From Parvularia atlantis (taxonomy: Eukaryota; Opisthokonta; Rotosphaerida), in contig CALSCO010001821.1 in the NCBI GenBank assembly GCA_943704415.1, positions 1 through 26,819 of the forward strand: a stretch of DNA of 26,819 nt. Direction: 5' to 3'. Below are positions 285 through 26,819 of the stretch, piece after piece. Each line of letters opens with the position of its first letter. The stretch's first letter is position 1. The position numbers were made by a program, and so were the translations under genes. The notes under the pieces are model-generated. The model saw only the letters and a list, made by a program, of their open reading frames with translations, was not told where the DNA came from and searched no databases.

Positions 285-3098
285 ATGGGGCGGCGCGCGG
301 TCAAGAAGGGGGCGTCGTCGCTCGGGCGCGCGCTGCTGAAGGACCGCTTCGACCGGCAGCGGCGGCCGGACGAGTTCTCGCACGTGCGCGGCGCAGCGCC
401 GCTTCTTTCGCGGGCCTGTGAGCGCGCGCGCGCTGACCAAGCCACGCGGCTGGCGTGCAGAACCACACGACCGAGCTCGACGACGGCGCCAAGTGGACGC
501 GGTACCAGTCCGTGACCGAGCAGCGCGACCTCGACGAGTTCCTCAGCACAGCCGAGCTCGCCGGCACCGACTTTACGGCCGGTGCGGCAACTCTTTTGAA
601 GCGACGGCAGAGCCACTGCTCACCTGGAGCGCGCAGAGCGCCGCAACGTCAAGGTCATCGTCGACGTCGACACGGCAAACAGCGGGCGCCTCACGGCCGA
701 GCAGGAGGCGCGCGTCACGCGGCTCATGCGCGAGCACACGGACCAGCTGCGCATTCCGCGGCGGCCGCGGTGGGACAACACGATGACGGCGCAGGACCTG
801 CAGCAGCGCGAGCGCGACGCGTTCCTCGACTGGCGGCGCTCGCTCGCGCAGCTGCAGGAGCAGGAAGAGCTGCTCATGACGCCGTTCGAGCGCAACATCG
901 AGGTCTGGCGGCAGCTGTGGCGCGTTGTTGAGCGCTGCGACCTGCTCGTGCAGATCGTCGACGCGCGCAACCCGCTCCTCTTCCGCTGCACCGACCTTGA
1001 GACGTACGTGCGCGAGGTCGGCGCGAGCAAGAAGAACCTGCTGCTGATCAACAAGGCCGACCTGCTGTCGGAGGAGCAGCGGTGCGCCCAGGCCGTCCGC
1101 TCCTCTGCTCGTGCCTCTCACCCCCCGCCGTGCCGCTCGCAGCAAGACCTGGGCCGAGTACTTCAACCGCGAAAAGATCCCGTTTGTGTTCTGGTCGGCC
1201 TTCCTCGCGCAGCACCAGCTGGACGAGGAGGCTGCCGCGGCGCTCGCAGCCGATGCAGCCGACACCGAGCGCCGTCTGGCCGTCGACCCGATCTCGGGCA
1301 AGTCACTGCAGAGCCTGATGCCGCAGGACGGGCGGCGACCCGGGCGCAAGGTGCGTCCGCCGGCCTGGAGCGCACGGGTGACGGTGCGCTGACGGCGCTG
1401 ATATGCAGGACGAGGATGAGGCCGACGCGCGCTGGGAGGCCACGCGCATCAAGCTGGAGGACCTCGAGCTGGTCGAGGACGACGTCGACGGCGCGGCAGA
1501 CGTCGAGCTTGACGACGACGAGGACGATGCGGACGAGGGCGGCGAGGCAGCCGACGACATGGAGCCGGTCGAGGACGACGGCGACGAGGTTTCGCGCGCA
1601 CTGACCGCACGCAACCGTGCGCTGACGGGCGCCCGTTGCAGGAGTACGAGGACATCGACTCGGACGAGGACGACGCAGCCGAGAGCGAGGCGAACGGCGC
1701 GAGCGGGAGACGCACGGCCCTCGCGGCCATGGGCAAGGCCGACATCATCAGCCGCAGCGACCTGTTCAAGCTCTTCCTCGCGCTGAGCCCACCCGTCGAC
1801 CGTGCGTGCGCAACCGGTCACGAGCCGTGCTCACGCCGCGCCGCGCAGTGCTCGAGGACGGCTCGCGCGCGCGCGCGACGATCGGCTTTGTCGGGTACCC
1901 AAACGTGGGCAAGTCGTCCACGATCAACGTTCTCTGTGGCGAGAAGCGCGTCGCCGTCGCCGCCACGCCGGGCAAGACCAAGCACTTCCAGGCACACGCC
2001 GGGTCGTGTGCGCTCGCTCGCTCGTCTGACAGCGCGCGCGTGCAGACGCTCAACGTGGGCGAGGACCTGTGCCTGTGCGACTGCCCCGGTCTCGTCTTCC
2101 CCAACTTTGCCACGACCAAGGCCGAGCTGGTGTGCAACGGCATCCTGCCGGTGGACCAGCTGCGCGACGGCGTGGCGCCTGTCGGGTGCGATGCGCGTGC
2201 CGCTGTGCGCCGCCCGCTGAGGCCCGTTGTCACCAGGCTCATCTGCGACCGGCTGCCGCGGCGCCTGCTCGAGCTCATCTACGGTGCGCGCACCGCTTGG
2301 CGCAGCAGGCCGGCCTGCTCACCCCACCCGCGCTGCAGGTGTGCGGCTCGCCCCGCCGGCCGACGACGAGAACCCAAAGCGCAAGCCGACCGCATCCGAG
2401 CTGCTGTCGGCCTACGCCTGTGCGTGCAGGCGCGCACGTGTGTATTGCTCACGGGGGGGCTGCAGACATGCGCGGGTTTGTCAAGTCCAACCACGGCACG
2501 GCTGATGAGCAGCGCGCCGCGCGCTACATCCTCAAGGACATGGTCAACGGCAAGCTTCTGTTTTGCCAGCCGCCGCCGGGGATAGCCGCGAGCAGGTTCA
2601 ACAACGACCAGTACCGGCAGCAGATCCGGTGCCTCGCGCTGCACCCCGTGCTGCGGTGCACGCGTTCTGACGTCGCCCGCCTCGCCCCGCCCCGCCCTGG
2701 CAGCAAGTACTCGATCCTGCGCGGACGCGTGGACGCACAGGCCGCCGTGAGCCCGCCCGCGCCGGCAGGCGACGCAACCGGGCGACGCACGGCACCAGCC
2801 GTGGCGGCGGCCGAGGCCGACGAGGACATGGACGCCCCGCTGCCGGCCTCGCGCGCCGCCGTGCAGTACTCTGCGCAAGGCCCGGTGGTGCGGCCCCCCT
2901 TGGGCGCACTGTGCGCCTCTGACGCGCGGCGAGCAGAGCGCGTCATCCGTGAGCGAGATCGACCGCGAGTTTTTCAAGCAGTCCAAGGTGCTGATCAAGA
3001 GCAAGGGCAAGAACCCGATCGAGGACTTCCGCAAGGCGCAGCATCGCGCCCTGACGCAGCAAAAGCGCAGCGAAAAAGGCAAGGCAGCCGCGTCGTGA
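285..3098 (+). CDS. LSG1: LSG1-type large-subunit GTPase, 13 exons
   Basis: This is a cytoplasmic GTPase of the YlqF/YawG circularly permuted family. It is needed to release the export adaptor NMD3 from pre-60S ribosomal subunits. The start gives MGRRAVKKGASSLGRALLKD, like the N-terminus of LSG1 proteins. The permuted order is clear: G4 NKAD at about residue 212, then G1 GYPNVGKSST at about 419, then G3 DCPGL. PFERNIEVWRQLWRV and QIVDARNPLLFR are family hallmarks, and an acidic linker separates G4 from G1. The C-terminal part has SAYAYMRGF and ARYILKDMVNGKLLFCQPPPG. I place introns at 384-460, 582-636, 1082-1142, 1351-1408, 1589-1641, 1802-1848, 1992-2045, 2186-2236, 2284-2338, 2420-2465, 2629-2703 and 2888-2936. 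Spliced, this gives about 710 aa in one frame ending at TGA. The 1992-2045 intron appears to begin with GC. The gene is convergent with TAM41, 50 bp away. Confidence 0.95.
1992..2045 (+). other. Probable GC-AG intron in LSG1
   Basis: The exon ends KHFQ with CAG, then GCACACGCCGGG starts the insert, which ends GTGCAG before TLNV. LSG1 homologues read KHFQTL without a break, so these 54 bases are extra. No GT donor fits the frame: the nearest, 12 bases in, would shift it. The insert has CTGAC at 2026-2030, like the other introns. It is a multiple of three and has no stop, so retention as 18 extra residues is the alternative. Confidence 0.7.
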
Positions 3099-3148
3099 TT
3101 CGCCAAGGGCAGCAGCAGCAAAAACAACGTCCACATGCGCGGCGCAGG

Positions 3149-4543
3149 TCACTGCCGCGGCGCGGGCGACGACTCGTCGAGCGCCTTTGACCGCTTGGCT
3201 AACTTCTGGCGGACGTACTCGACCGTCTTGAACAGGCCGGCGGTGAAGATGCCCTTGATCGACTGCACTCTGCTCGAGCGGCTGTTGATCTCGCGCAGTG
3301 CTACGGCGGGCGCGTTAGTGCTTCGGCTGCAACCACGCGCCGCACGGCACCCTGCAGCAGGTACTTGGAGCGGTCTGGGTGCAGCGTAAACTCGCGAATG
3401 TCTGCTCAGCGCGCCTGTGAGCTGGCGTGTCTGCCGTCCTCGCGCGAGCGCGCGCGCGCACTGTTCGTGGGCCGCCCTGTCCCGAGCTCCCAGTGCCGCA
3501 TCACACGCCACTGGAAGTTGCTCGGCAGGAGCGCTAACCTGAGCGCGGTCGTGTCCGGGTCGTGGTCTTGCTGCGCGCCCGGCGGCGTCAGCGCGCAGGC
3601 GCGACAAGTGCGCCGCAATGCTCACCTCGATGAACGCCAGCGGCGACGCCGGCAGCGAGACCGTCGCGGGCGCGAGCTCGCGCAGCAGCGGCAGGTAGAT
3701 CTCGGCAAACTCGTCAAACTGGCCCTTGACGATGTTGCGAACCTTGTGCGGGTTCTCGCCGTAGACCATGCGAAAGTCGCCTGGTTGCACGCGCGCGCGT
3801 GAGGCTGATGTACGCGCGCTCGCGGGCCGATGCGCACCCGCGTACGACAGCCCCGCGATCGTCGTGAACAGCTCGGTCTGGGTGAACGTCGCAGGTAGCA
3901 TAAGCAGCGCCGTGTGCAGTGCGTTGGTCCGGTTGAGCGCGAGCGCGCTGTCAAACTCGTGCGTGGACCGTACGACGTCGACCTGCGCGCGACGTCACAA
4001 CGCCGACGACGAACACCGCGATCCCGCGCGCGCGCACCGGCTTCTGCAGCCGCCCGCTCAGGTAAAAGTCGTCCCAGTGGCGCAGCTCGCGTTGCAGGCG
4101 CTCGAGCGTGACGACGCCGTACTTGATCGTCTGCCGCCCGGCGTGAGCAGCTGCAGCCATGCACATTGGACGATGTGTCTGTCGCACCCGCCCCTGGAAC
4201 GGCACCAGCGTGTTGTAGTACACGCCCGCGCCGAGCATCTGCACCCACGCGACGAAGCGTGCGCCGCCCAGGGCCATCAGCGTCGCGTAGTGCGCGCGGT
4301 GCTGCCGCAGGTTGACGTCGTGCCACGCTGCCGCATCCTCCACGCCAAAGATCAGGTCCACCATTGACGTCTGCGCCGTCGCGCCTCAGCCTGCGCGGCA
4401 CACAAGCGGCCGATGCGCGCGCGGCGCACGCGGTCGTCCACGCGCTGCCCGTGCTGCGCCTTGACCGCCGAGCCGTACGCGACCAGGACCGGCACGGGCG
4501 CGCGGAACTCGGCCGCGACGGCGCGCGCCACGAGCCCCGCCAT
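3149..4543 (-). CDS. TAM41: TAM41/MMP37-type mitochondrial phosphatidate cytidylyltransferase
   Basis: TAM41 makes CDP-diacylglycerol from phosphatidic acid and CTP at the matrix side of the inner mitochondrial membrane, the first step to cardiolipin. After splicing, the nucleotidyltransferase core reads VPVLVAYGSAV (Gly24-Ser25), then MVDLIFGVED with Asp43 as a likely metal ligand, then GAGVYYNTLVPFQGR, IKYGVV, SGRLQKPV, LNRTNALHTALLMLP and IAGLSYAGDFRM. The end has SIKGIFTAGLFKTVEYVRQKL, matching the conserved C-terminus. About eight exons are joined by GTGCG-type or GTGAGC donors. One intron near 3320-3350 has a classic CTAAC branch and TAG acceptor. The N-terminus is short and only weakly presequence-like (MAGLVARAVAAEFRAP). 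The start codon lies 12 bp from the TLS1-type start on the other strand. The family is certain; the exact start is less so. Confidence 0.93.
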
Positions 4544-4555
4544 GCACTTCGCAAC
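4544..4555. promoter_or_regulatory. 12-bp spacer between divergent start codons
   Basis: The ATG of TAM41 (minus, 4541-4543) and the ATG of the TLS1-type gene (plus, 4556-4558) leave only 12 bases. Each gene's 5' leader and at least part of its promoter must lie inside the other gene's first exon, unless one true start is further in. No other methionine fits TAM41 exon 1 upstream of the GS motif. Confidence 0.6.
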
Positions 4556-4638
4556 ATGGCAGACGTCACCTTCCGCCGCGCGAAGCGCCCGCGTGCCGTG
4601 CGCACGACGACGCCGGGCAGCGGCGACGAGGCGGGCGA

Positions 4639-4680
<42 letters not shown>

Positions 4681-5685
4681 TTCATCGCTGGCGCTCGAGG
4701 CGGCCGAGGACGACGACGAGCGGCACAGGCACGCGGCCGCCGCCTGCTGCCCGCCACGCCACGCTTGCTCAGACGCCACGCGCAGCACGCTCGTTGAGGA
4801 GGCGCGCGAGCTGCAGCGGCTGCGCCGCCGCGCCGCCGGCATCTCGGTCGACCGGCTGATGGATCCCGGTGACGGCGCGCGCGGCGGTGGGCCAGCCGGC
4901 GCGGGCGCGGCGGGCGGCGCGGCCGGCGACGACGACCCGTTCAAGCTCAAGACGGGCGGGCTGGTCGAGTCGCTCACGGGCGGGTTCACGAAGCAGAACA
5001 ACGCCCTCGACGTCGACCGGCACATGTGCGCGTTCGCTCGCGCTCGCTCGCACACCCGCGCGTCTGCTCACGGCGCCGCGCGCAGGGTCGCCTACGTCGA
5101 GCAGGAGATGCGCAAGCGCCGCGGGCTCGACAAGGACGGCGCCAACGCCAAGCCGGTCGACCCGATGGACGAGCTGTACAAGCTGCCGGAGCACGTCGAG
5201 GCACGTGCCCGCGATCGCCGTCTTGCCCGCGACTGAACTGCGTGTGCCGCGGCCGCAGAAACTGCTCAAGCCCAAGGAGGCCGCGCCGCTGGACGAGGGC
5301 GTGGCCAACACGTCGGCGATGCTGATCAACATCCCCGAGATCGACCTTGGCGTGCAGAGCAAGGTACGCAACATCGAGGAGACCGAGCGCGCCAAGCAGG
5401 CGATGGCCGACGCCAAGCCGGTCGCATCGTGCGTCGCTCGCATGCGGGTGCCGTTCGCCGCGCACCGCTGAGGCGCGCGCTGCACAGCAACATCGACGAG
5501 ACGTACCTGTTCACCGAGAGCGAAAAGCGTGCGTTTGTACGGGCCGCCTCATCGCTCCGCTGCGCCACCAACACGCAACGTACGCAGGCTTCGCCAAGCC
5601 GAACCAGAAAGAGCGTACGACCGCGAGCGACGACATCGTCATGGAGCGGTTCAAGAAGCGCGACATGGCCTTTCGGAGACGATGA
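4556..5685 (+). CDS. TLS1/C9orf78 (Hep59) family protein
   Basis: This belongs to the Hep59/C9orf78/Tls1 family (PF07052 by recall), spliceosome-associated proteins. In fission yeast Tls1 affects telomeres through splicing. Supporting segments in order are: MADVTFRRAKRPR, matching the basic family N-terminus; LVEEARELQRLRRRAAGIS; DDPFKLKTGGLVES; YVEQEMRKRRGLD; DELYKLPEHVE; INIPEIDLGVQSKVRNIEETE; FAKPNQKER; and the C-terminal SDDIVMERFKKRDMAFRRR. The order and spacing match the human protein. Canonical GTGCG introns lie near 5034-5090, 5418-5487 and 5530-5590. Two further introns, 4729-4785 and 5201-5258, seem to use a GC donor. An acidic low-complexity region includes a Ser-Ala hexanucleotide repeat. 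It ends 78 bp from the convergent gene at 5764. The family's role is known; function here is inferred. Confidence 0.9.
4640..4680 (+). repeat. TCGGCG hexanucleotide repeat, about seven copies
   Basis: This tandem run lies inside the TLS1-type coding sequence and encodes alternating Ser-Ala. A hexamer keeps the frame when its copy number changes. It sits in the poorly conserved acidic linker. Confidence 0.9.
4729..4785 (+). other. Possible GC-AG intron in the TLS1-type gene
   Basis: The segment begins GCACGCGG after CAG and ends CGCAG, with a weak branch-like GCTCAG. It is 57 nt with no in-frame stop, and no GT lies just upstream. Removing it brings the acidic stretch next to LVEEARELQRL, as in homologues. 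The flanking region is low-complexity, so 19 retained residues cannot be ruled out. Confidence 0.45.
5201..5258 (+). other. Intron with GC donor or weak GTCGAG donor in the TLS1-type gene
   Basis: An intron is required: the frame changes between YKLPEHVE and KLLKPKEAAP, and an in-frame TGA lies at 5234-5236. The acceptor is GCCGCAG at 5258. The donor in phase is GAG followed by GCACGTGCCC, or else a GT six bases upstream (GTCGAG), which lacks the GTGCG pattern. The GTGC four bases in is out of phase. Confidence 0.55.
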
Positions 5686-5763
5686 TGACGTGTGGCCCAC
5701 GGCGCCGCGGGGGTGCCGTCTGATACAATACACCGTAGAATGCCTTTTGGTGATGATGAGTGA

Positions 5764-8700
5764 TTAGGGCGCGGACGCGCTCGGCCCGCGCGAGACGTTC
5801 TTGAACATGCGTTGGCGGTGCCACTCCACGAGCGACATGGTCCAGCTGACAGTGGCGCGCACGTTGTCAGCGTGGGGCGGGCCGAGCGCGAGCGCGCGCG
5901 CACGGCACCTCTGCGCGCGCCACTGCTTGACCATGTCGCCGCTCGACTGCTGCCGCGGCGAAGCCGCCGCGCGCATGGTCCCGCGCTGGCCAGACTGCTC
6001 GCGCTGCATCTGCATTGTCAGCCGGCGGAACTTGGCGAACGTCGACGACTTGTACACGTCGTTGTGGAGGATCTGGCGAGGCCGCGCGTGAGTTGCCCGC
6101 GCGACATGGCCGACGACACTACCAGACCTCGAAGCACGTGAGCGGGTACATGAAGTAGTTGCTCGCGTTGAACGTGACCTTGTCGTCCTGGAAGCCCGTG
6201 ATGCGCACGAAGGCTGCACAGGCGCGTGTTGGCCGACCGCGCGCGCGCGCCGCCTCGCATCCGCACGGGCCACGCACCGATCATGCGAACCTTGCGCTCC
6301 TCGTCAACGTCGACCAGGCCAGCGTCGTACAGGTGCTCGGCGCCGATCGCGACCTCGGTCGAGCGCTTGAGGCGGTCCAGGGCCAGCGACAGGCTCTGCG
6401 GCGGCGGCGGCGGCGTTGAGCGGTGTCAGCACTGCCCGCATATGTCGCGCGCCACCCGACCTTGTCCAGGTCGTCGAGTGCGGCTGGGCGCGTCGTGCGC
6501 TCGAGCGCGGCCTGCATCGACGCCATGAAATCGTCGTCGCTCTCGCGCAGGATGGCGCCGCCTGGAGCGCACGCTCAGCGCTTTGCCGGTGCACGGCAGG
6601 CAGCCTGCGCACCCTTGATGTAGTCCCACTCTTGCGGCGTCACGTCGGCGCGGTCGCGCACGCGCATGACCGGCACCATTTGCGGGTACAGCCGCGGCAC
6701 GAGCACGAAGAAGCCCTTCATCGTCGACACGGCGTGGAACAGGCCGACGTACAGGCCCGCCGTCAGGTTGTTCTTGGCCGAGTCGTGGATCTCGGCCAAG
6801 TGCATCCACAGCGGCCACGCGTGCTTGTACACGCTCCAGTCAAGCTGCCAACACGCGCCGCGTCAGCGTGGCCGCGCGCTCTCGGTGAGCGCACCCGCTC
6901 GGTCTCACGCCAGCGCAGCTGCAGCGCAGGGTCGGCCTTGCTCAGCTCGTCCACGTACGCCTCGGGGTCCGGTATACTGCGCAGGCAGAAGATGAACGTC
7001 GTCTCGAGCGACTCGCTCGTCAGCGGCTGGCGTGCACACAGAGCACGGTCAGCGGCCGCGCACATGCACGGCGGGCTCGTGCCTCGCAGTAGATGTGCCC
7101 GGGCGAGCGCAGGCACAGCAGTCGCGACAGCCGCACGACCGCGCGGTCGACGCAGTCGTAGAAAGACATGCGCTGGTCCAGGTCCTCGAGCGAGTGGTTG
7201 GCGCTGAGCGAGCCGTCACCCTCGTCGCTGCGCCGCAGTGTCAGGCCAGGCCGACTCGGCCGGCGCCGCGCGCACGGGCTGGGACGGCGCGGCGACCCCG
7301 GCGGGCTCGTGTTGCTGCCGAGCCCGGACGAGCTGGACGCGTGCGCGCCGGCAAACACCCGCCGCGTGACCTCCCTCATGTACTCGCTATCGTCCCAGTC
7401 CTTTGACAGCTTGAGCAGATACCTGACGCCGCCGTCGTGCGCTCAGCCGTGTGCAACGTCGTGCGAGCGCCACGAACGTAAAGTCGTCGCTGTTGGCGTC
7501 AAAGCCGTGCACGGGGTACGTGTCGCCGCGCGCGATTGGCACGCTCGGCAGCAGCCCGCTGCTGGTGTGGAGCACGGCGCCGTCGGCGCGGAAGAGCACC
7601 TGCACCAGGTAGATGCTGTCCTTGCGGATTTTCTGCGCCGACAGGGCACGTGAGCACCAGCCTGTGCACATGGCGCCCGCCACACCTTCTCCATCACGAC
7701 CTTGCCCGTCAGCGGCAGCGGGTCGCGGAAGAAGGTTGTAGACGCGCCGTGGCTGTCGCGGTGGCTGCCCGCGTGGCTGCTCTGCCCGGCCTCGGCCGGA
7801 GTCTGCGGTGCGCGCTGCGTGAGCATGACGTGTACGGAAAGCGGGACGCGGGCGCACTTTGCTCGGCGCCTGCGCGAAAAAGTCGCCCGTCTTGACGCGC
7901 AGCTGCAGCACGCTCTGGGCGCGCACAACACCGTCAGCGCGAGTGCCGTGTGCACCGCCGCGCACGCGCACCCATTCGCGCAGGCCGTACTCACGCAGCG
8001 CGCGGCCCTCGTACAGCCAGTGCGACGTCTGCGGGTGGAAGAGGGCGAAGCGCCACTCCTCGTGCTTGCAGAAGCGCTTGACGCACTGGCGGCCGCGGCG
8101 CTCAGCCGGGGCAGCGGGCGCCGCCACGAGACGCATCCGCACCTTGCCAAACAGCTCGGCCGTGTCCATGCTCAAGCTGACCTCGAAGATCTTGACCTCC
8201 TTCAGCTCCTCTTGCGTCCCGCCCTCCTCGATGCTCTCGACCTTGATGAAGAATTTCCTGCACCGCGCGCTCGCTCAGGCGTCGCGGGCACGCGCACTCG
8301 CGCGCACGCACCGGTCGCCGGCGATGTCGATGTCGCGCAGCGATGGGCGTGCCGACCGCGAGCCGCGCAGTGCCATCAGCCCGTCGTCCGACACGGGCGA
8401 GGTCGAGGTCGAGGTCGAGTCGCCGTTCTTGGGGCGCGTCTCTGCCGTGCACGCGGCCTGAGCGCGCGGCACTGCCACGCGTGCACCGCCGCAGCCCCGT
8501 GCGCGCACCGATGTACGAGAAGCGGTTCGCCCACGTGTCGACCAGGCGGCGCCCGATGCGCCACGAGCCGGTCACGGGCGAGTTGGCCTTGGACGAGTCG
8601 GGCGTGACGGGCTGCGATCTGCTGGTACTAGCGGGCGCGCCAGCCTCGCCGCTGGCACGCGCGAGCCGGGCGACGTCGTCAGGGCCGCAGAGGGACGCGC

Positions 8701-9293: not shown

Positions 9294-9358
9294 GGTGCGG
9301 CGGCGCAGCAGCTCGTGTTTTTGGAGAGAATCGTCCTAGCTGGCCCCCGCGAACAGTG
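9294..9358. promoter_or_regulatory. 65-bp bidirectional promoter region
   Basis: This spacer separates the divergent start codons of the unrecognised minus-strand gene and the NO VEIN-type gene. It is locally poorer in GC than its flanks, with a GTGTTTTTGGAGAGAATCG stretch. No known element is recognised. Its size depends on the less certain minus-strand start. Confidence 0.5.
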
Positions 9359-12300
9359 ATGGCGGCGCAGGTGCGCGCGGCGCCAACCTTCGTGGCTTGC
9401 CCCCAACCCCAACCCCACCGCGCGCGCGCGCGCCGCAGAAGCCGCCCGCGCAGCACGTGGGCGCGTCGGTGCTGCACGTGGCCGTGGGCGAGCGCAATTA
9501 CGCGCAGGTGCGGGCGCTTGCACGCGCGCGCTGCTCTGCACGCCGCCAGCGAGCGCTGACCGGGTCTTGCGCGCACAAGGTCGTGCGCCTGCTCGAGGGC
9601 AGCCCCGAACTCGTGCGCACGCGCGACCAGCGCGGCCAGACGCCGCTGCACTGGGCCGCCAAGCAGGGCGAGCTCGAGCTCGTGCGACTGCTGTGCCAGT
9701 ACGGCGCGAGCCTGACCGCCCAGGACGACGGCTCGGACGGCGCGCCTGACCCGACCGCCAGCGAGCCGCAGCCGCGCACGCCGCTCGACGTGGCGCAGAC
9801 CAAGGAGGTCGAGATGTACCTGCAGGCGGGTACGTCGCGTGCGCTATGTGCGCGGCCCTTGCCGGGACGTTGACGCGGCCGGAGCAGCTGGCGACGCGCG
9901 CAACCGGCCGTTCCGCCTCGTCCTGCCCGACTGGACCGACGCGTTCTACCCGCGCGTGCGCAAGCTCGGCCAGAGCTACAGCTCGCTCGCAGCCGAGAGC
10001 GCGTTCCTGCAGCGCGCAAGCCCGCTCGTCGCCGTCGCGCGGTTCCCGCTGCACGAGCGGCTGTGGTCGAGCATGCAGCGGTGCGGTTTCGCGAGCGACT
10101 GCCCGCGACCAGTTTGGCCTCACGCCGCGCCGCGCAGCTACGTCGAGACGTGCCTGGCGTCATGGTGCCTCGCCCTCGCGCTCTACACTACCAACCAGCG
10201 CATCCGCACCGCACGCCTGCGCGAGATGGTCGCGTTTGTCGAGGCTAACGCGCAGGCCAAGGCGCGCCTGGACGCACTCATGCAGCGGCTCGAGGACGGT
10301 CGCCAGCATATCGCGGACGAGCGTACGCGCAGGCCGCTCCAGGCCGCATCGCTCTGCGCTCACCCCCACACATGCAGACAACGACCAGAAGCTGAGCCTG
10401 CTCAAGATTAAGGAGGAGCAGCTGCGCAAGAGCGAGGCCCGCGTGGCCGAGCTGGAGAAGCAGGCACGTGCGCAGCTGCACGCCCGCGCGCGCGGCTGAC
10501 GGCCTGTGAACGTGCAGCTCGCCGACACGCGCGAGGAGCTTGTAGGAACGCAGCAAGAGCGCGACGAGGTGCTCGCGACCGTGCACCAGCTGCGCTCGGA
10601 CAACAAGCGCCTGCATCGGGTGTGCGACCATGCATCGCGCAACAAACTGCTCGCTGAGCCGCGTGCGCGGAAGAACGTGCTGCTGGGCCGGCCCGCAGAC
10701 GACGTGGCCGGGGCAAAGGCCGCCACAGTAGCGCTGGCCGACGCGCCGCAACAGATCGTGCCCGCTGCCAGCGAGCCTGTGGTGACAGAGACCGCGGCGG
10801 TCGCGGCCGATGATGCCGGTGCCAGCTGCCAGCTGCAGGTCATTCGCTCCATCCGGCGCGACCGCGGCTACGACGTGGCCGTGCCGTCGGCGCAGATGCA
10901 GACGACGCTCGCGACGCTGTACAAGTCGCTCGACAGCGCGCTGCAGAAGTTGTCGGAGGACATCTACTCGTCGTCGTCGCGCTTTATCCTAGAGCTGATC
11001 CAAAACGCCGACGACAACCATTACGACGCGGGCCAGCAGCCGGCCTTCTCGCTCGACCTCAGCCCGGTCGAGGTGCGCGCGTCAGCGCCGCCTGCGCGGT
11101 GCCGTGACGCGCGCGGCCGCAGCGCTACGTCGTCACGTACAACAACGAGGTCGGCTTCGTCGAGGCCAACGTGCGGTCAATCTGCGAGATCGGTGCGTGT
11201 ATGCGCATGTGCCAAGACGCGGCACCTTACGCATAAGGCACACAGGCGGCAGCACCAAGCTCGACGCGGCGCGCTACATCGGCCGCAAGGGCGTCGGGTT
11301 CAAGTCGGTGTTCAAGGTGGCGTGCCGCGGTCGCTGTGCGCGCGTGCGGGCTCAACAGACGCGCACGGAGGTCACCGACCAGCCGCACGTGTTCTCCAAC
11401 GGCTTCCACTTCCGGTTTGACTCGCGCAAGCAGCTCGGCCATATCGTGCCCGAGTGGATCGACGTGGGCGAGCTGTCGCGCGCGGGTGCGTGGCGCCGCT
11501 CGAGAGGTGCGGCCTGAGCGCCCGCTCGGCAGACGCAACGTTTGGCCACCTGTGCCAGGACAAATTTCCGGCGCTCGTCACGGGCGAGCTCTGTGCGTTT
11601 CGCGCGCTTGCGGTGAGCCGGCCGGTTGGCTGACCCGGCCGCGCGAGCAGCCGGCACCGTGTTCTACCTGCCCCTGCGCGGCGAGAAGGAGCTGCAGATA
11701 GAGGAGCTGATCGACGACCTGGCCGGCGCCGAGCACACGCTGCTGTTCCTGCGCCGCCTGGTCACGCTCGACTTGACCATGGACGTCAAGGAGAAGACGC
11801 GCGGCTACGAGGCGCCGGGCCTGTGGCGGACGATGACGCGGCTGCTGACGGCGTGCGTTGCGCTTGACTATGCCCGCGACGGCCGTGCCTCACGCGCGCA
11901 CCGTCCAGCCGGCACGACGACGTCGAGCAGTGCATTGAAACGCGCCGGTTCCACGACGGCACCGAGCAGCTCCCGTCGACCAAGACGCGCTACCGGTGCG
12001 CTCGACTCTGGACTGCTTGCACAGCGCTGAGCGGCTGGTTGCACGGCCAGGGTGTTCCGGCGCGTGCTCGACGTGCCCGCGCACCTTATCGACCGCGGCC
12101 GCGACGGTGGCTCGTCCACGAGCACCGAGATCACCCTCGCCTTCCCCGTGACCGAAACGCCAGGTGGCGGCGCTGCACCGAGGCGGCGCGGCGAGTGCTG
12201 AGCGTGCGCACCCGCAGAGGAACCCGTGCCGCTGCAGATGGTGTACGCGTTCCTGCCCGTGCGCTGCGTCGGCCTGCACTTTATCGTGCAAGGTGCGGCG

Positions 12301-15300
12301 CGGGCGCGCGCAGCGTCGCCCTGCTGACACGAGCGCGCAGGCGACTTCCAGCTCGTCACGTCCCGCCAGGACGTGCACCGGACCAAGCCCTTCAATGCGT
12401 GGTTACGCGACCAGACCGCGCAGCTGTTTGTGGATTGCGTGCGCGAAGACACGTGCGTCTATGCCGCGCGCTCGTGTCTTGTGTTGAGTGCGCGGCCACC
12501 AGCTACGTGCGCTCGCGCCTCAACGTGTTTGTGCCGGACGAGGACGAGGTCGGCGACCCGTTCTGGCGCGCGCTCGCGGACAAGCTGTGGTCGTTGCTGG
12601 AGGTGTGCAAGCCTTCGCTCGTGTTGTGGCCGCGGCTGACCCCGCGCGCAGAGCGAGAACTGCATCCCGTGTGAGTCCGGCCGCCTGCGCGCGCCCAAGG
12701 ACGTGCTGATCAAGCCGCTCAATATTGACGGCCTCGTGACCAACGACGAGCTGCAGGCGTGCCTCGACAAGGGTGCGGGCCGAGCCTGCCCGTGTACCGC
12801 CACCGGGCTCAGCAGCGCGCCGCAGAGTTTCTCGCGCCGACGTTTGACCGCGCGCGCGCGACGAGCAAGCTGCGCCTCGCGAGCTTTGGGCCGCGCGACC
12901 TCGTACAGTGCCTGCGCCACACGGCCATGCGGCTCAGCGAGCGCGACCCTGCGTGGCTGGCCAAGGCAACGGGCGCACGGCGCTGCACCTTCGTGCACGC
13001 ACTGACGCGTGCGATGCGCAGCTCTACGCCGTGCTGCAGTGCTTCGACAGCGAGCACGTTGAGCCGCTGCTGGGCGATCTCGCGGCGCTGCCGATCTTTG
13101 CCCTGCGCGGCGACGCGCCCGGAAAGTGGCAGCTCAAGTCGAAGAGCGCCTGCCGCGGTGCGTGTGAGGCAGAGGCGGGGAGCGGCGGCGGCACGGCGAG
13201 CGCTCTGAGGCGGCCACGCAGGCGCCGTGTTTCTGCGTCTTCCGCCGGCGCTCAAGACGTCGCAGGACGAAGTGCTGCCGCCCTCGATCGTTGACATCCT
13301 GCACCCAGACTCGGTCACGCCGGCGGGCGAGCGCTTCCTGCACTGGTAACGTGCATTGCGGGCGTGTGTGCCGTTTGTGAGGCTGACACACGCTGGCCGC
13401 AGCATCGGCGTGACCGTGCCGACCATCGCTACGCTCGTCGACATGTTTGTGCAGCACCACGCGGCCGGCCTCGTGCGCCGACTGCCACGCCCCGCGCTCG
13501 CCGTCGCGCAGGTGTGGCGCCGCAATGCACGCCGACCCGTGGGGCTGTGCTGATTGTGCGCGATCTCGCTCAGCAACTGCGCTTTGTGCGCGATCACCTC
13601 GACGAGTACGTCAAGCACGCAGTGCGCGACGGCGCGACGTTCAAGCCCGACGACCTCAAGGCGCTGCTCCTTGTGCCGTCGACGGACGGTGTGCGCCCTC
13701 GCAACAGTGGCTGCGGCTGCTGACGCGGTCGGCAGGCCTGCTGCGCCACGCGCACGAGCTCTACTTGGCCTCGTGTGAGCGGTTGTGGGCGGGCCTGGAC
13801 GCGCAGACGTGCATCGTGAGCTTTACGGACGAGAGCGCGCTGCTGCAGGACGCTGTGGGCGACGCGGCCGAGCGCGGTGCGCGCCGGGCCGCCGGCTCTG
13901 TGGTCGCTGACGTGAGCACAGACAAGTGGCAGGCGTTTCTGCGCTTCCTCGGCGTGGAGGACGCACCGCGGCTGACGGTCGCGTTTGTGCCGCACGACGA
14001 CGTTAGCGCCCTGGACGCGGTCGTGCAGCTGCCGACGCCGTCGGTATGTGCGCGCGGCGGGCGTAAGACCTGCTAACGGGTGCGCACGCGCGCAGCAACT
14101 GTACGCCGTCTTTGCCGACAAGGCGAGTGTGCCCACGACGGGCGGTGTGCTCGAGCTGGTGCCGTCGCACGAGCTGCAGGCCGTGCTGAACGACGGTGCG
14201 GTGCTGCCGCGCTCGCTGAGTGCGCCTGACGGGTCTTTCACAGGGTCGCTCGATCGCGTCGGGCTCCTCATCCAGCTGATCGACCAGGCGTGGGACCGCG
14301 TGCCGTACAGCAAGTGCGGTGGCACCTGCGTGCACTATCTGCGCTCATGCCTGCGCGCCGCTCGCAGATGCACGCCGCTGTGGACGGTGCTGCGCACGCT
14401 GCGCACCCCGACGACGTTGGGCGACGCCCGGCCGTTTGCGCTATGCTACTCGCAGGTGCGTGCGCCGCGCGTTGGCCTGGCGCAGCTGAGCCTCGCGCCG
14501 CGCAGACGCTCAAGGCGCGCTTTGCGGACGCGCTGCCGTACCTGACGTGGCCCGTCGCGCACCACGCGCTCCTGGCGGCCCTGCGCGTGACGTCGGACCT
14601 GACGCCGAGCGTGACTGTCGACGTGCTTGAGCTGCTGTCGCGCGAAAAGTGCGCGGACACTCGCTGCTGCGCACAGGCTGAGCCCTTGTGTGTGCGCAAC
14701 GCAGACGCGGCCTGCCGGCGACGTGGCACGCGCTCTACAGCTACCTGGCCGACGCCGACGCGACGCACGCGCTCACGCCGTTCATCGGCCGGCTGCGCGC
14801 GGTGCAGCACCTGTGCGTGGTGCGCCCGAGCTTCACGGGCTACCACGGCGACGCGGCGTCGTACCTGGAGCCGCGCACCAAGCTGCGGTGCGCTGCCGAA
14901 CTGTTGACAGGACCGATCGGTGGCTCACGTGCACGCGCAGCTGGAACGGCCACCCAGACATCGCACAGAGCGCCGGACTGATCCTGCTGGCCGAGCAGGG
15001 CTACGCGCAGTGGCGTGACTTGCTGCTGAACGTGTTTGGTACGCACACTGGCGATGCTGTGCTGGTGGCCGGCTGACGGTGCGGGCGCAGACATCCCGCG
15101 CGCGCTGAGCATCGGTGACTACGTGCTCGGCCTGTCGCGTCTGACCAACGACGAGGGCGTGCTCAGCCCGGCGGCGATGGCAGTGCACCCGTCGCACGCC
15201 TCGGCAGCGGCGGCGGTGCCCTGACACGTGGCGCCCAGTCGATGCCGTTTGAGCCGCTCAAGAACGTCAACAACGACCGCAACTTTGTGCAGGACAAGCG

Positions 15301-18300
15301 CTGGGAGGCGATCCTGGCCCACTACAGCGCGCTCGAGCGCATGATCAGCACGGTCAACGTCTCGTCCGACTCGGACTGGGCCGGCTTCCCGATGCTGCTG
15401 TGGCGGCTGGCCGGTGGCGCGCGAGAGAGCGGGGGCGAGTCTGACCGCCGCTGATGGACGCGAACGCCGCAGACGACACGCCTGTGTGGTACTACTGGCA
15501 GCCGAACGCGGCCGTGCCGCCGTACGCGGACGACGACGAGCTCGTGCTCATGTTCAAGCACGTCGAGCCGATCCTGCTGCACCCGGTGCGCGCCCTCTCG
15601 CTGTGTCCGGCGCCGATCTGCTCAGTCAACGGCGCAGGTCTTCACGGACGACAACTTGCCGGGCCTGCTAAGCCGCCTGGGCTCGCGGCCGTTCTCGACG
15701 CACGTGCGGAGGCGCTTCATCCCGCAGGAGGCAAGTCTGTGCGCGCGCGCGGAGCGACTGTGCGCGCTGATCTGGCGCACGGGCGCGCAGAAACTCGGCG
15801 TGTACCACAACTTGGCCACGTCGATGCTGTACCGGCGCGCGGTGTCGCTCGCGTTTGGCATTACGATCTCCGAGTGCGCGCATGGGGCCGCGTGCGAGTG
15901 CGGGCGCTGACTGCGGCGCGGCAGGGACGACGAGGACGCGGTGCCTGTGCCGGAGGAGGTGGCGCAGCGCAAGGCCGAGCTGCTCGAGCTCGAGCGGCGC
16001 ATGCTGCAGTTTGTCTACGTCTACGACGTGCACAAGGTGCAGAGCGCCAGCTGTTTGTTCGCTCACGTGAGCTCACGGCCGCGCCGGAGCTCAACGTGAC
16101 GTACACGATCACAGCGGGCGAGGAGGTCGTCGAGCAGGAGCGCGAGGAGGCCTTCTTCTACCAGGCGTGCGTGCGCGTGTGACTAGAGGGCGGCGGCAGT
16201 GGCCGACCGCGCTCGCTGCGCGCGCACCAGGCCGCTCGCGGACCGGTACCCGCGGCTGTTCCTGTCGACGCAAAAGCGCGACCGGGCGGCGCTGCTTGAT
16301 TTCGCCGCGCTCACTGCGGTCACGGGCATCCCTGCGGCGCGCCTCGAGCGGTTCTTCAGCAGGTGCGACTCAATCGCTCGGGTACGCTCGGTATGCTCAC
16401 GTGGTGCGCCCGCAGCCAGCACATCATGGACCTGCTGACGACCGAGCTGGCCGAAGGCGCACTGCGTTCGACCAAGGAGGAGGGCGAATGGCGCCAGCTG
16501 TGCGACAAGGTTAAGCAGCTCGCGGCCGAGGCGGCGGACGCGCGCCGGCGCGGCCCTGCGCGCGGAGGCGGCGGGAGCGGACCGCGGTGCGCGACGGCGA
16601 CAAGATGTGCGCGTGCCTGATGGCCGAGCGCAGGCTTGGACCGAATGACCGTCCGCGCCAGATGGCCCGCGAGCCCGGCCGGGGCACGTTCCGTGGCGAC
16701 CACCGCGGCAAGTGGCCGCAGAACCGCGTTGGCCACCAGCGGTCGTACGTCTTTGACCGGTTGCTGCAGCTGCAGACCGACGCGCTCCTGGTGCGCACCG
16801 TTGGATGCCGCGCGCGGCCAGCGCTCACGTCGCGGCTGCTCGGGGTGCTGCAGGAGCTGGTGAGTGACGAGCAGCGCGATCTCGCCTCGGGCGACGAGAG
16901 AGCGGGCGGGCCGCCGCGCGCCGGCGGCAGCAGCGCCAACGGCGTCAACGTGGGCGGCGCGCCCTTCCGCGGCCTTGGCGGCGGCGGCGACGGCGGTGGC
17001 GGTTGTCCTGGTGCAGGCAGGGTGCCGCGCGAGGGCGGTGGCACTGGCTTCGGTGCAGGCGGGCCGCGTGAGGGCGAGATGTTGCCGGCCGGCGAGGGCG
17101 AGGGCGACGCGCTGCGGCTCGCGCGGCCGCGGTGCGCTCGGCGTGTGCGGCGTGATATGCCGCAGCTCACGCCCGCCCCGCAGCCGCCTGTTTGACCCGT
17201 CCTCGCTCGACTTTGACCCATCGCGCCTGGCAGAGCCGGTGCTCGACGACGACGGCAAGCCGGTGCCGCCGCGTTCAGACTTCGTCGGTGCGTGCTTCAG
17301 TTGCGCGCGCGCGTGAAGCGTTGCTGACCGCTCGTTGTCGCCGCGGCCAGGAATGGAGCGGCCGTTTGATCACACGAAGGACGGGTCCTGCTACCCGCTT
17401 ACGGAGGAGAAGCTCAAGGCCGACGAGGCGTCGCGGGTGTGAGCGCTTGCCGCGCCAGGGTGCAGGCAGGCCATACTGACGTGCCACGCGTGCTTGCAGT
17501 CGATGGACGATACGGGCGAGATTGCGGGCATTCCGAGGCACTTGTCGCGGGTGTGCATGCGACTGGTGCTGACCACGCAGCGCGGGATGGCACAGGCGCG
17601 TGTTTGACGGCTTCAAGTTCTCGTCGCTGCACGCGCCGTCCTCGGTCGCGATGCTGCGCGAGCTGCCGCCCGTCTCGCGCGAGCAGATGATGGCGATTAT
17701 GGAGGCGCTCGGGCAGCTGCAGACGCAGCACTCGTGTAGGTACCTGTTCATGGAGGACCACGACTGCAATGCCGACTTTGACCAGGTGCCGGCCGCACGG
17801 GAGCTGCGCGTCGCCGCACCGCTGACCGAGCCCGCCCGCGCCGCCGCCCAGGCGATCGAGGCGATCGGCCCGGCCGCATCGGATATCTTCTCGCTCGCGC
17901 GCAAGCAGATGGGTCTGCCGACGATTGTCGGGCGGCACGAAGCCGTGGACCCGTACCTCAGCGAGCAGTCGGACATGGACGACTACATAAAGACGCAGGC
18001 GATCGACCACCGCTGCGGCCAGGTGCGCGGCTGCGCGCGCTGGTGTGCGTGCGTGCGTGCGCGTGACGCTGGCGCAGCTGGGCGAGCTGTTTTTTTTCAA
18101 GATGCTTACGGTCGCGCTGGGCGAGGACGTGTTTGGCCCGGAGGTGCGCGTTATGCAACCGGAGGGTGCCGCTGACGGCCGCGCGACGGCAGAACTGGGT
18201 CTCGCGCTCGCGCGAGCGCTTCTTCCCACAGTTTGGGCCCGGTGACGACCGCATCGGGCACGACTTCCGCTTCAAGGACGCCAAGGGGTGCGTCTGCGGT

Positions 18301-18777
18301 GGCGCTTGCGGCGGGCGGCGCGCTCAGCAGCGCCGCGCCAGGACGCTCGGCCGCCCCGGCACGACGTACTGCATCGAGGTCAAGGGCCAGCTCAGCCACA
18401 CAAAGAAGGTCGTCAGCGTGAGCGCGAACGAGTGGCGGCGCGCGCGCGAGATGGCCGAGCAGGCCGGGGTGCGTGTTCGCGGGGTTGCGCGGCCGCCTGG
18501 TGACCCGTGCGCGCGCAGGAGTCGATGGTGTACGTGCTGGCGATCGTCGCGCTCTCGCCCAAGCCCGTGCTGCTGCAGTGGCTCGAGAACCCGTTGCGTC
18601 TCACGCGCGCGACGGGGCGCGGCTGTGTCTCAACGCGCGCGGCACACGCGCAGGTTTACGCTCATGGGCCGCGGCTGGCTCGACGTCGCGCCAGACGGCT
18701 ACCGCATCCGCGTGCGCGTGCCCTGGCTGAGCGGGCTCGACGGCGGCGTCTTGCCAAAGGGGCTCGAACTCGAGTGA
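9359..18777 (+). CDS. Giant NO VEIN-family protein: ankyrin, coiled coil, GHKL ATPase, Gly-rich region, DUF3883
   Basis: Spliced, this gives roughly 2,500 aa from ATG 9359 to TGA 18775-18777 over about 35 short introns. Ankyrin-like repeats come first (ASVLHVAVGERNYAQ; GQTPLHWAAKQGELELVRLL, about 9582-9830). A helical coiled-coil follows (about 10200-10620). Then a GHKL ATPase at about 10900-11800 has the N-box FILELIQNADDN, the G1-like YNNEVGFVEANVRSICEIG, and G2 YIGRKGVGFKSVFK. These match plant NO VEIN and are close to sacsin. A long alpha-helical middle carries no known motif; a Gly/Arg-rich segment lies near 16550-17120. The C-terminus is DUF3883: LAQLGELFFFKML, then IGHDF and YCIEVKG, a D...ExK pattern of PD-(D/E)XK nucleases, then VSANEWRRAREMAEQ. 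One open frame links coiled coil and ATPase, supporting a single gene. Exact middle exons are not resolved. NO VEIN acts in plant vascular development by unknown chemistry; the role here is unknown. Confidence 0.85.
10464..10517 (+). other. Possible GC-AG intron in the NO VEIN-type gene
   Basis: The coiled-coil exon ends VAELEKQ with CAG, followed by GCACGTGCGC, and the next exon resumes LADTREELVG after GTGCAG. An in-frame TGA at 10497-10499 forces an intron. The nearby GTGCGC donor is out of phase with this acceptor. It would be in phase with a TAG at 10544, giving a 77-nt intron and losing nine coiled-coil residues, so the GC reading is likely but not certain. Confidence 0.5.
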
Positions 18778-18812
18778 GCTGCTTGCTGCGCCCGCCTAGA
18801 CTCATCAGTTGT

Positions 18813-21025
18813 ATGACAGTTGCACGTGCCACCAGTGACCATCAGATGCTGGCGATCGCGGCGCTCGTGCTGGGCGTGCCGCTGCTGTACGTCGTGTGGG
18901 AGGCGCTGCACCGGCGCTCGTTCGGCGACTTCAACAAGCTGCCGGGCCCCGTGCCCCTGCCCGTCGTCGGCTCAACCTACGTCTTCCCGCGCGACCGCGC
19001 CGAGATCGAGCGCCTCGGTCTAGTCTTCACCGAGATGTACCAGCGGCAGTACGGCGCGTTCAAGATGTGGTGCGTGCCGGCCTTGTGCTGTTGATGTGCC
19101 CGCACGGCAGCGCGTGATGAGACGAGGGCGCCGCACGCAGGCTCGGCATCTTCCCGGTGGTGCAGATCGGCGACCCGGAGCTGGTCCAGCAGGTCATCGG
19201 TGCGCGCGCCGCTGGCGTCCGTTGTGCGGCGCGTCTGTGTCCTCACGGGCGCGCGCGGAAGGCTCGTCCAAGAACAGCGCCAAGGGCTTCATCTACCGCT
19301 CGCTGTACCCGTGGCTGGGCCGCGGTGCGTCGCGGCGGCAGCACGGTGTCGTGCGCGGCGGCCCTGACGAGCGCGGTGCGCGCAGGTCTGCTCACGTCCG
19401 AGGGCCAGCTGTGGCACGACCGGCGGCGCCTGCTCACGCCCGCGTTCCACTTCAGCATCCTGGACGGGTTTGGCGAGATCATGAACGAGCAGGTGCGGCG
19501 CGCGCGTGGGGCGGGCGGCGGGCGGGCTCACGTGAGCGGCGGCGCAGGCCAACGTGTTTGTGCGCGCCGTGGCCAAGCACGCCGACACGGACGCGCCCGT
19601 GGACCTGTTTCACTACATCACGCGCTGCGCGCTCGACATCATCATGGAGACGGCGATGGGCGTCGAGCTGGGCTCGCAGACGGCCGAGGTCGAGCCCGAG
19701 TACGTCACGGCGATCTACAGCATGAGCCGTCAGATCACCGAGCGCGGGCGTAAGCCGTGGCTGCTGATCGACAGCATCTTTGCGCTCTCGCCCCAGGGCC
19801 GCAAAGAGACCGCGACGCTCAAGGTCTTGCACGGTGCGTGCTGCTCGCGGGGATGTGCCGCTCGCACGAGTGTCGGACATAACGCGCACGCGCACAGGGT
19901 TCACCAACAAGGTCATCAAGGACCGGCGCCAGACGATCGACCTCGCCGAGGCACAGACCAAGCGCCGCCAGGCGTTCCTTGACCTGCTGCTCACGGCCAA
20001 GTACAACGACGGCTCGATGCTGAGCGACCAGGACATCCGTGAGGAGGTCGACAGTGCGTGCACTGCGCTGTGCTGCGCTGCGCTGCGTGCCCTCGTCGTC
20101 GGCTGCGCGCTGACCGCGGGCGCGCGCAGCGTTCATGTTTGAGGGCCACGACACGACGAGTGCGGCCGTGGCCTGGTCGCTGTTCCTGATCGCGCAGCAC
20201 CCGGACGTGCAGAGCCGCCTGCACGAGGAGCTGGACACGGTCCTGGCCGACGACGACGACATCACGACCAAGAATGTGGGGTCGCTCAAGTACCTCGAAA
20301 TGGTCAATAAGGTGCCCTTCCGCGTAGTACGCGCGCACAAGAGACACGCGCTGCTCACACCGGCCGCTTGCGGCCGCGCGGCAGGAGGCGCTCCGGCTCA
20401 AGCCGTCCGTGCCCGGCATCTTCCGCCAGCTGTCCGAGCCGCTGCAGATCGGTGACCTAACGATCCCCGCGGGCGTGTCGTGCAGCATCCGCATCTGGGT
20501 ACATGCGCGCTCGCGTCTGCCGGCGGCGCCGCTCACGCCGGCTCTGTGCGCGCGCGCGCACCAGGACATGCACCGCGACACCATGGTGTGGGGGCCCGAC
20601 GCGCTCAAGTTCGACCCGGACCGCTGGCTGCCCGAGCGCGCCAAGGGCTACCATCCGTACCAGTACATCCCGTTCTCGGCGGGCCCGCGCAACTGCATCG
20701 GTGCGCGCAGCGGCAGAGCCACGGCGGCGACGGCGGGCGGCACTGACGTTTCGCGCGGCAGGCCAAAAGTTTGCGCAGCTCGAGGAGAAGATCATGGTCG
20801 GCAAGGTGCGCGCGCTGCCGCATATCGCGCGTGCCAGGCGTGCGCGCTTACGGCCCGCGACAGCTGCTCAAGCACTACCGCATCGCGACCGACAAGGAGT
20901 ACATCGCCGCGATCCCCGATGTGCGCGCTCGCGCAGGTGTCGGCGTCGTTTGCTGACTTCGGTGTCCGCAGATCATCCTGCGCCCGCAGCCCGAGCTGCC
21001 GATCCGGCTCTACCGCCGAACGTGA
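18813..21025 (+). CDS. CYP4-like cytochrome P450 monooxygenase
   Basis: This is a microsomal P450 of the CYP4 clan, usually fatty-acid omega-hydroxylases. An N-terminal anchor ([21 protein letters not shown]) is followed by a proline hinge, [11 protein letters not shown]. The C-helix WxxxR appears in [18 protein letters not shown]. The I-helix is [23 protein letters not shown]. The K-helix ExxR is [11 protein letters not shown], formed across an intron. The meander reads [21 protein letters not shown], and the heme site is [10 protein letters not shown], with the cysteine as the fifth iron ligand. About nine short introns, mostly with GTGCG donors, interrupt it; all landmarks stay in frame. 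ATG 18813 and the in-frame ATG 18846 are both possible starts; the second begins directly at the anchor. It follows the NO VEIN-type gene by 35 bp on the same strand. Substrate cannot be read from sequence. Confidence 0.93.
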
Positions 21026-21138
21026 GCACGCCGCTCCCGGCCTGAGTGTCAAATGTCGACCACGCATGTGCTTTCCGCCTCAACGGCCCGTCTCCACGCA
21101 CGCGAGACACACAGACACACGCACACGCGTCCCGCCGC

Positions 21139-21798
21139 TCATGCCTTGACCGCGTACCGCCGCAGAGGGAAGTGGCGCTTGCGCACCTCCTGGCGGCGCG
21201 TCTTGGCCGACAGCTCCTCCTTGGTGAGGCGGCGGCGAATCGCGCGCGTCTTCTTGGCGCGGAGGTCGGTCGGCTGCGAGCGAGCGCGTTGTGGGTCAGC
21301 AAGTCGGCGCACGCCCTCGCCCAGCGCCACGCCACGCACGATGTACTTCTTGCCCGCGTAGAACTTGCGCAGGTTTGCCCGCTGCGCCTCGTTGATCACG
21401 GTGTGGATGCGCGCGATCGCCTTGCGCGTGTGGAGAATGCGCGAGACCTTGGACTGGCTCGAGCCCGTGGCCTGCACCACGCGGAGCGACGCGAGCTCCT
21501 GTGCATGTCTCGCGCCGTTCAGCGTGCGGTGCGGCATGGCGTGTGTGCGCGCGACCGCTCGCCTTCTTCTGCTCCTCCAGCTGCCGCTCGAGATCGGCCT
21601 TGTTGAGCTTGCGCAGCTCGACGGTCTTGATGCGCGCCTGCCGACGCGACGCTCGCGTGAGCCATCCATCCATCCATCCATCCATCCATCCATCCATCCA
21701 TCCATCCGTGCGGTGCGTGCGGCATGTGCAGTGCGTGGGGCGGCGCAGTGCGGGCGGCTCGTGCGGTGGCGCGGGGTCACGTGACGGTGGCTCACCAT
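21139..21798 (-). CDS. RPL35: Ribosomal protein eL35/uL29 (RPL35), four exons
   Basis: This 60S ribosomal protein sits at the polypeptide exit tunnel. Spliced, it gives about 122 aa, the usual length. It starts [20 protein letters not shown], continues [20 protein letters not shown], then [36 protein letters not shown], and ends [10 protein letters not shown], which is diagnostic. Exon 1 is the ATG alone, followed by a 158-nt intron (21638-21795) with a GTGAGC donor and CTCAC branch. Two more introns lie at 21499-21562 and 21274-21339. The first-exon-is-ATG layout is common in ribosomal protein genes. The 21499-21562 intron must begin with GC. It diverges from PRP4 across 48 bp, so a housekeeping promoter is probably shared. 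All residues expected for the family are present. Confidence 0.96.
21499..21562 (-). other. GC-AG intron in RPL35
   Basis: The exons LEEQKK and ELASLRV are in different frames. They align without gap or extra residue to the conserved RPL35 segment when joined after AAG and before GAG. The 64 removed bases start GCGAGCGGTC and end ATGCACAG. The only nearby GT, six bases in, is out of phase with this acceptor, and no GT lies between codon 3 and the junction. Confidence 0.82.
21662..21707 (+). repeat. CCAT tetranucleotide microsatellite, about 11.5 copies
   Basis: A perfect CCAT (minus strand ATGG) array lies within intron 1 of RPL35. On the minus strand it presents many ATG triplets downstream of the real start, but splicing removes them. 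Confidence 0.97.

Positions 21799-21846: not shown

Positions 21847-24553
<2,707 letters not shown>

Positions 24554-26748: not shown

Positions 26749-26819
<71 letters not shown>
26749..26819 (+). repeat. Poly-T run of 71 bases at the window end
   Basis: An uninterrupted T run reaches the last base of the window. In a genome this GC-rich it stands out sharply. It may be a real homopolymer, or an assembly or library artefact at a contig end. It starts 72 bases after the ankyrin stop codon. Confidence 0.95.

Follow-up and report, generated by a model that had tools for sequence, protein, structure and literature searches.

GC-AG introns in Parvularia atlantis

Contig CALSCO010001821.1 of the opisthokont Parvularia atlantis (assembly GCA_943704415.1, 16.25 Mb in 616 contigs), which is 26,819 nucleotides (nt) long and is hereafter called the window (contig C437), was analysed together with a further 200 kb (L003-L022) for introns that begin with GC and end with AG. 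As judged from the sequence, these GC-AG introns are a real and abundant second class that accounts for about 6% of the introns in the resulting sample of 226.8 kb. They are probably ordinary U2-type introns in which the donor changed from GT to GC, a change tolerated where the surrounding context compensates for it. Their donor reads AG|GCACG or, less often, AG|GCGCG, while that of the GT introns reads G|GTGCG. That they are spliced from RNA is suggested by the fit of the predicted proteins to known ones.

Intron calls

All calls were made with a semi-Markov gene model trained without labels on both strands of the sample, in which a three-periodic coding model is combined with intron segments consisting of a donor, a branch point and an acceptor. 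All 16 dinucleotides were permitted at the donor, AG was imposed at the acceptor, and the branch point was given a CTNAC-like initial prior; in the main run GT started with a prior of 0.5 and the remaining 15 dinucleotides shared the other 0.5. This run called 985 introns, including 882 with GT, 70 with GC, 11 with AC and 6 with CA, each other pair occurring at most four times, and a run with equal priors for the 16 dinucleotides called 971 (GT 856, GC 73, CA 15, AC 8). When the donors were masked one at a time, the median loss was 7.8 nats for GT (150 sampled), 7.45 nats for GC (all 70) and 1.6 nats for the other dinucleotides (33). The confident set comprises the 53 of 70 GC calls with a loss of 4 nats or more and a G in position -1. 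Removal of 11 doubtful calls, itemized below, leaves 59 of the 985 introns (6.0%) with the ends of the U2-type GC-AG class, the AG being imposed, and in 42 of these 59 the length is not divisible by 3.

The introns of the sample are short (modal length 54 nt) and frequent (6.3 per kb of coding sequence), and they are U2-like, with the model consensus G|GTGCGY at the donor, gCTgAC at the branch point and gCAG at the acceptor; ordinary donors were also described as beginning with GTGCG in an earlier note on this DNA. The window has a GC content of about 70%; in the sample the third codon position is 91.5% GC, and C/(C+T) at interior positions of introns is 0.68. The best PDB relatives of the conserved proteins are eukaryotic and often mammalian. 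A search for the fungal chitin synthase domain PF08407 gave no match, nor did any of the control genomes.

The proteins predicted across GC junctions were compared residue by residue with PDB chains for six conserved proteins, and all nine junctions examined were gapless: one each in LSG1, RPL35, PRP4 kinase (24256) and cullin-4, three in the trifunctional enzyme alpha subunit and two in UCH-L3. This includes the two junctions, in RPL35 and LSG1, at which it had been proposed earlier that conserved residues join without a gap if GC is the donor. Confident junctions submitted to Pfam numbered 39, namely 7 in window proteins and 32 of the 43 elsewhere, and 24 of them fall within a matched domain while 15 lie outside; the remaining 14 confident junctions were not submitted separately, and one of these, C29 34166, located on the edge of a stretch that matched, was left out of the count.

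Two donor words

The GC donors differ from the GT donors on both sides of the splice site. Among all 70 GC and 882 GT donors, A at -2 is found in 89% vs 32%, G at -1 in 91% vs 73%, and A at +3 in 57% vs 4%, whereas C at +4 (86% vs 88%) and G at +5 (96% vs 93%) are common to both. In the 59 filtered GC donors A+3 reaches 63%, and position +4 is C in 85% and A in 7%, compared with 88% and 2% in GT donors; because GT donors have the same C+4 consensus, this base is a trait of the genome and not of the GC class. AG precedes the donor in 56 of 70 GC introns but in only 205 of 882 GT introns (p = 2e-21). The suggestion that GC donors form a distinct class with a context of its own is borne out by these figures.

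Within the AG context, positions +2 and +3 are coupled (GTA 7, GTG 186, GCA 36, GCG 20; p = 4e-22). Relative to intron-interior composition, G+3 is favoured over A+3 by a factor of 7.3 (95% interval 3.7-19.9) after T+2, and A+3 over G+3 by a factor of 6.5 (3.8-11.4) after C+2. The corresponding +3 preferences in the genome-wide counts restricted to CTGAC, described below, are 7.1 (T+2) and 2.2 (C+2). Since the preference flips in both data sets, two donor words, GTGCG with T+2 accompanied by G+3 and AG|GCACG with C+2 accompanied by A+3, were accepted over a single noisy consensus. The proportion of GC donors depends strongly on context, being 36 of 43 with AG and A+3, 20 of 206 with AG and G+3, 8 of 443 with G-1 and without A-2, and 6 of 248 without G-1; in the sample it climbs to 84% where AG and A+3 are both present, from about 2% where AG is absent. 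These strata are not a detection artefact, because the model, when made to score AG|GT donors like GC ones, recovered 173 of 193 (155 of 200 for donors outside the AG context).

The whole genome was searched with the pattern AG|GxxCG, 27-50 nt, CTGAC, 8-26 nt, CAG, with its reversed form as the control, one start being allowed to count repeatedly. The counts and their controls were 541 and 26 for GCA, 87 and 11 for GTA, 900 and 47 for GCG, and 1989 and 19 for GTG, while the decoy AG|GAACG gave 12 matches vs 17 reversed. A looser initial pattern (AGGCACGNG..GCAG) had given 903 matches vs 463 for its reversed control. Matches located in the sample were called as intron starts in 10 of 11 cases for GCA, 9 of 9 for GCG and 24 of 24 for GTG; GTA had no match there. 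In AG|GNACG the GC donors outnumber the GT donors, by 541 to 87 genome-wide (with CTGAC) and by 36 to 7 in the sample (AG, A+3). As GC introns are richer in CTGAC, this pattern inflates the overall GC share, and the 6% of the gene model is preferred.

In the open-licence PMC literature that was searched, neither the joint switch of +2 and +3 (T with G, C with A) nor a majority of GC donors in AG|GNACG was found, and both are new as far as could be found there.

Compensation of the GC donor

The classical donor motif of GC-AG introns is AG|GCAAGT. The donors described here have the strong consensus of this motif at -2, -1, +3 and +5 and depart from it at +4, where A is not the consensus, a difference which does not affect the ends that define the class. 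The supposition of the earlier note that these donors lack compensation did not hold up, since besides carrying A-2, G-1, A+3 and G+5 they form more Watson-Crick pairs to U1 outside +1/+2 (4.09 vs 2.73 for GT donors) and are more often followed by the branch point CTGAC. The latter is found, in AG context, in 30 of 56 GC introns vs 53 of 193 GT introns (p = 0.0004), with AG|GCG at 13 of 20 and AG|GCA at 17 of 36 (p = 0.002 and 0.03 vs AG|GTG at 52 of 186). If the GT sites are read with C, their mean predicted U1 duplex energy would be -1.83 kcal/mol. In length, branch-point distance and acceptor the GC introns equal the GT introns.

It is quite reasonable to suggest the following course of events. 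In a genome with about 70% GC, AT-to-GC pressure would repeatedly yield a T-to-C change at +2, and the resulting GC donor would survive where other contacts are good: those of exon positions A-2 and G-1 with U1 and then with U5 loop 1, that of A in place of G at +3 with U1, and that of a better branch point with U2. A normal spliceosome would thus tolerate GC at sites with good U1, U5 and U2 contacts, presumably the ones that compensate; the contribution of U5 is one that we infer from passages of PMC11732430. GC donors are found here nearly all in the AG context, the one in which pairing with U5 loop 1 is strong, and as G+5 is retained in GT and GC donors alike, a U5/U6 seesaw is not what divides them.

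Several points weigh against this reading. The predicted U1 duplex energy of GC donors stays weaker than that of GT donors (-3.10 vs -4.08 kcal/mol), so the compensation through U1 is partial, and the intron-interior composition that serves as the baseline of the +3 swap is an assumed one. A blind test was weak (GC 17, CA 8, CG 8 and AC 7 of 974). In this test the non-GT priors were set to 1e-9 for training, and calls were made on the half not used in training, with flat alternatives that took no account of context. The GT-only training nonetheless called 3 GC introns per half; 16 of the 17 GC sites had AG before them, this context being unscored. The searches for small nuclear RNAs (snRNAs) scored 41 of 149 first-look candidates for U1 and 47 of 492 for U6, which leaves room for a second U1. 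In addition, Micromonas RCC299 is reported to have only 2.7% GC-AG introns at 64.1% GC, and the correlation with GC content over species to be weak outside three genomes (PMC3033335), so GC content alone is insufficient to set the GC-AG share; for mammals, GT-to-GC conversion is described as having no strong dependence on regional composition (PMC2490688).

Splicing machinery

One U1 gene above the cut-off was found (L001:706-869, minus strand), with the standard 5' end AUACUUACCUG, as well as one U6 gene (L002:1501-1662) with ACAGAGA, and both are canonical at the bases that pair with the donor. Together with the gCTgAC branch point this agrees with U2-type introns. Searches for further structured RNAs at gathering scores returned just the known U1 in L003-L017 and none in L018-L022, the window, L023 and L025. 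A variant U1 that would pair with C+2 was considered and rejected: the genome has two exact copies of the 11-mer at its end, and neither has an Rfam match above the gathering score.

The U6 gene contains a 48-nt insertion (L002:1560-1607), located after GAUUA and before GCAUGG and flanked by GTTG repeats. It could be an intron, although there is no AG end in register. An intron within U6 is known from S. pombe.

C+4 is the consensus of both GT and GC donors, yet neither the U1 nor the U6 that was found pairs with it. Homologues of METTL16 (L023:1114-2535, minus strand), whose best three PDB matches are a U6 N6-methyladenosine (m6A) methyltransferase, and of SNRNP27 (L025:1501-1614) are present; both factors have been linked to A+4 in passages of PMC10581693. 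The METTL16-like gene codes for 473 amino acids and is intronless despite the intron density of this genome, and the N-terminus of its product contains repeated NVTRVQQL. At the acceptor, G at -4 is found in 66% of GT introns vs 35% in intron interiors, giving CGCAG, a complement of the donor UGCG.

Alternative explanations

The two donor words with a valley between them might tentatively be understood as positions +2 and +3 being recognised jointly, for instance by an unusually modified U1 or a protein like U1C, and not base by base, with C+4 in both words possibly belonging to the same altered reading. Active recognition of GC donors by altered machinery, be it a second U1 pairing with C+2, a changed modification of U1 or U6, or changed proteins, appears unlikely. 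It would account for the flip of the +3 preference with the base at +2 and for the dominance of the unpaired C+4 in both classes, and base modification or U1 proteins have been suggested for algae (PMC3033335). On the other hand, there is a single U1 gene above the cut-off with a standard 5' end, the two copies of the variant 11-mer are not accompanied by Rfam matches above the gathering score, and the GC donors keep their need for A-2/G-1 and A+3, which is what one would expect of a donor with poor pairing.

GC donors could also be functional marks of introns subject to regulated retention or alternative splicing. Such roles have been reported for mammals, nematode and Arabidopsis (PMC2490688), and the 54-nt intron of LSG1 would, if it were retained, form an open, in-frame segment. 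Nevertheless, the GC introns are located in constitutive housekeeping genes (RPL35, LSG1, the trifunctional enzyme), their rate tracks context, and retention would shift the frame in the 42 of 59 noted above, which makes this explanation quite improbable.

It is still less probable that the GC donors are miscalls, with the real donor being a nearby GT or the segment being kept as coding sequence. Doubt of this kind attaches to some of the 70 calls: in four a GT lies exactly 3 nt upstream (window 11320, window 15417, C29 15443 and C36b 4591), six have no G at -1 (window 18605, window 20505, C477 60645, C29 35181, C29 42552 and C36b 2107), and several AC calls resemble the same register error. 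The GC calls just listed, together with C29 8738 (ctg|GCACGC), are the ones excluded from the 59. When a GC donor was masked, the model often picked a different non-GT donor with the same acceptor rather than a GT; the lengths of most of the 59 are not multiples of 3, and the junctions compared with PDB chains are without exception gapless.

That the GC introns are of a different type, either members of a family of mobile introners or excised through paired ends as in euglenids, is hardly credible, for although the donor UGCG is complementary to the acceptor CGCA and most GC donors of Micromonas pusilla are reported to lie in introner elements (PMC4815162), end pairing shows no within-intron covariation in GT introns (3.028 pairs vs 3.024 permuted, p = 0.35), sequence clusters hold 4 of 70 GC introns vs 31 of 915 others, and the GC introns share the dimensions and acceptor of the GT introns.

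As for identification with known kinds of intron, introner elements were rejected as there is no family in the sample, only small clusters with at most 5 members, and euglenid-type nonconventional introns were rejected since the borders are fixed and the ends do not covary. U12-type introns have an ATATCC donor and a CCTTAAC branch point (PMC3033335). This identity was rejected as well, the GC donors reading GC[AG]CG and sharing the CTGAC-type branch point of the GT introns; U12 snRNAs were not searched genome-wide.

GC-AG introns of the window

The window contains 10 confident GC introns among 121 introns called. The six sites for which recurrent GC-AG introns had been claimed earlier were all called as GC by the model without its being told of them. 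The first is the LSG1 intron at 1992..2045 (plus strand, cag|GCACAC, 54 nt), with a masking loss of 9.4 nats, which joins without a gap to human and yeast LSG1. Two lie in a Hep_59/TLS1-type gene on the plus strand: 4729..4785 (cag|GCACGC, 57 nt, 7.8 nats), outside the Pfam domain, and 5201..5258 (gag|GCACGT, 58 nt, 14.4 nats), the junction of which, at residue 176, is within the Hep_59 domain (125-225). The intron at 7027..7082 (minus strand, gag|GCACGA, 56 nt, 12.2 nats) is in a gene with no Pfam match. The remaining two are 10464..10517 (plus strand, cag|GCACGT, 54 nt, 8.6 nats) and the RPL35 (uL29) intron at 21499..21562 (minus strand, aag|GCGAGC, 64 nt, 4.2 nats), gapless to mammalian uL29. 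As corrections to the description of the donors as GCACG-like, RPL35 has GCGAG and LSG1 has GCACA.

Four further confident introns are on the plus strand: 15731..15790 (gag|GCAAGT, the classical GC donor word, 60 nt, 7.0 nats), 17538..17595 (gag|GCACTT, 58 nt, 6.4 nats) and two in the PRP4-kinase gene, at 22822..22876 (aag|GCGCGC, 55 nt, 11.3 nats), upstream of the kinase domain, and at 24256..24316 (aag|GCGCGC, 61 nt, 8.7 nats), gapless to human PRP4K. A tentative GC-AG intron at 12966..13021 (plus strand, aag|GCAACG, 56 nt) was called with a loss of just 3.0 nats and lies outside the confident count.

At 9359-21022 the gene model joins two neighbouring genes into one with 64 introns, a long ankyrin/NOV-like protein and, from about 18847, a P450-like gene, the names being read off the sequence. 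The contig ends with about 71 T (26749-26819), which may be an artefact of assembly or of poly(A).

Comparison with other genomes and significance

The published values compared here are those given in passages of the cited articles. Abundant GC-AG introns in GC-rich genomes are a known kind, published for algae. Their share among about 2.46 million introns from 61 species is 1.3%, but it reaches 39.6% in Aureococcus anophagefferens (69.5% GC), 22.2% in M. pusilla and 7.7% in Chlorella, an abundance that was tied to genomic GC by the authors, who found standard U1 5' ends (PMC3033335). For M. pusilla CCMP1545 an RNA-based value of 25.6%, largely within introner elements, is reported (PMC4815162), and for Emiliania huxleyi 56% of 241 hand-mapped junctions (PMC4028052); fungi have 98.7% GT-AG on average (PMC7072748). 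P. atlantis resembles the GC-rich algae Aureococcus, M. pusilla CCMP1545 and E. huxleyi in having high genomic GC, a GC-AG share far above the average of about 1% and, where checked, an unchanged U1 5' end. It differs in that its share of 6% is lower than those of Aureococcus (39.6%), M. pusilla (22-26%) and E. huxleyi (about 56-60%), in the lack of an introner family in the sample, and in the +3 swap, which was not found in the passages of the accounts of these algae (PMC3033335, PMC4815162, PMC4028052).

Mammalian GC donors are likewise described as nearer to the consensus, with A-2, G-1, A+3 and G+5 compensating for C+2, and it has been proposed that they were fixed neutrally where the context is strong (PMC2490688). 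Unlike the mammalian AG|GCAAGT, the donors of P. atlantis have C and not A at +4, T+2 donors favour G+3, so that the base at +3 flips between the classes, and GC is the majority in AG|GNACG.

That GC-AG introns abound in certain GC-rich genomes has been called an enigma (PMC3033335). About 6% of the introns in this genome would escape a gene finder that accepts only GT donors, and the C+4 consensus beside METTL16 and SNRNP27 homologues would put to the test models in which both factors are tied to A+4. In the gradient of GC donor share with context, this genome reveals the price of tolerating a GC donor, and mutation-selection balance may thereby become measurable at a nearly invariant splice position.

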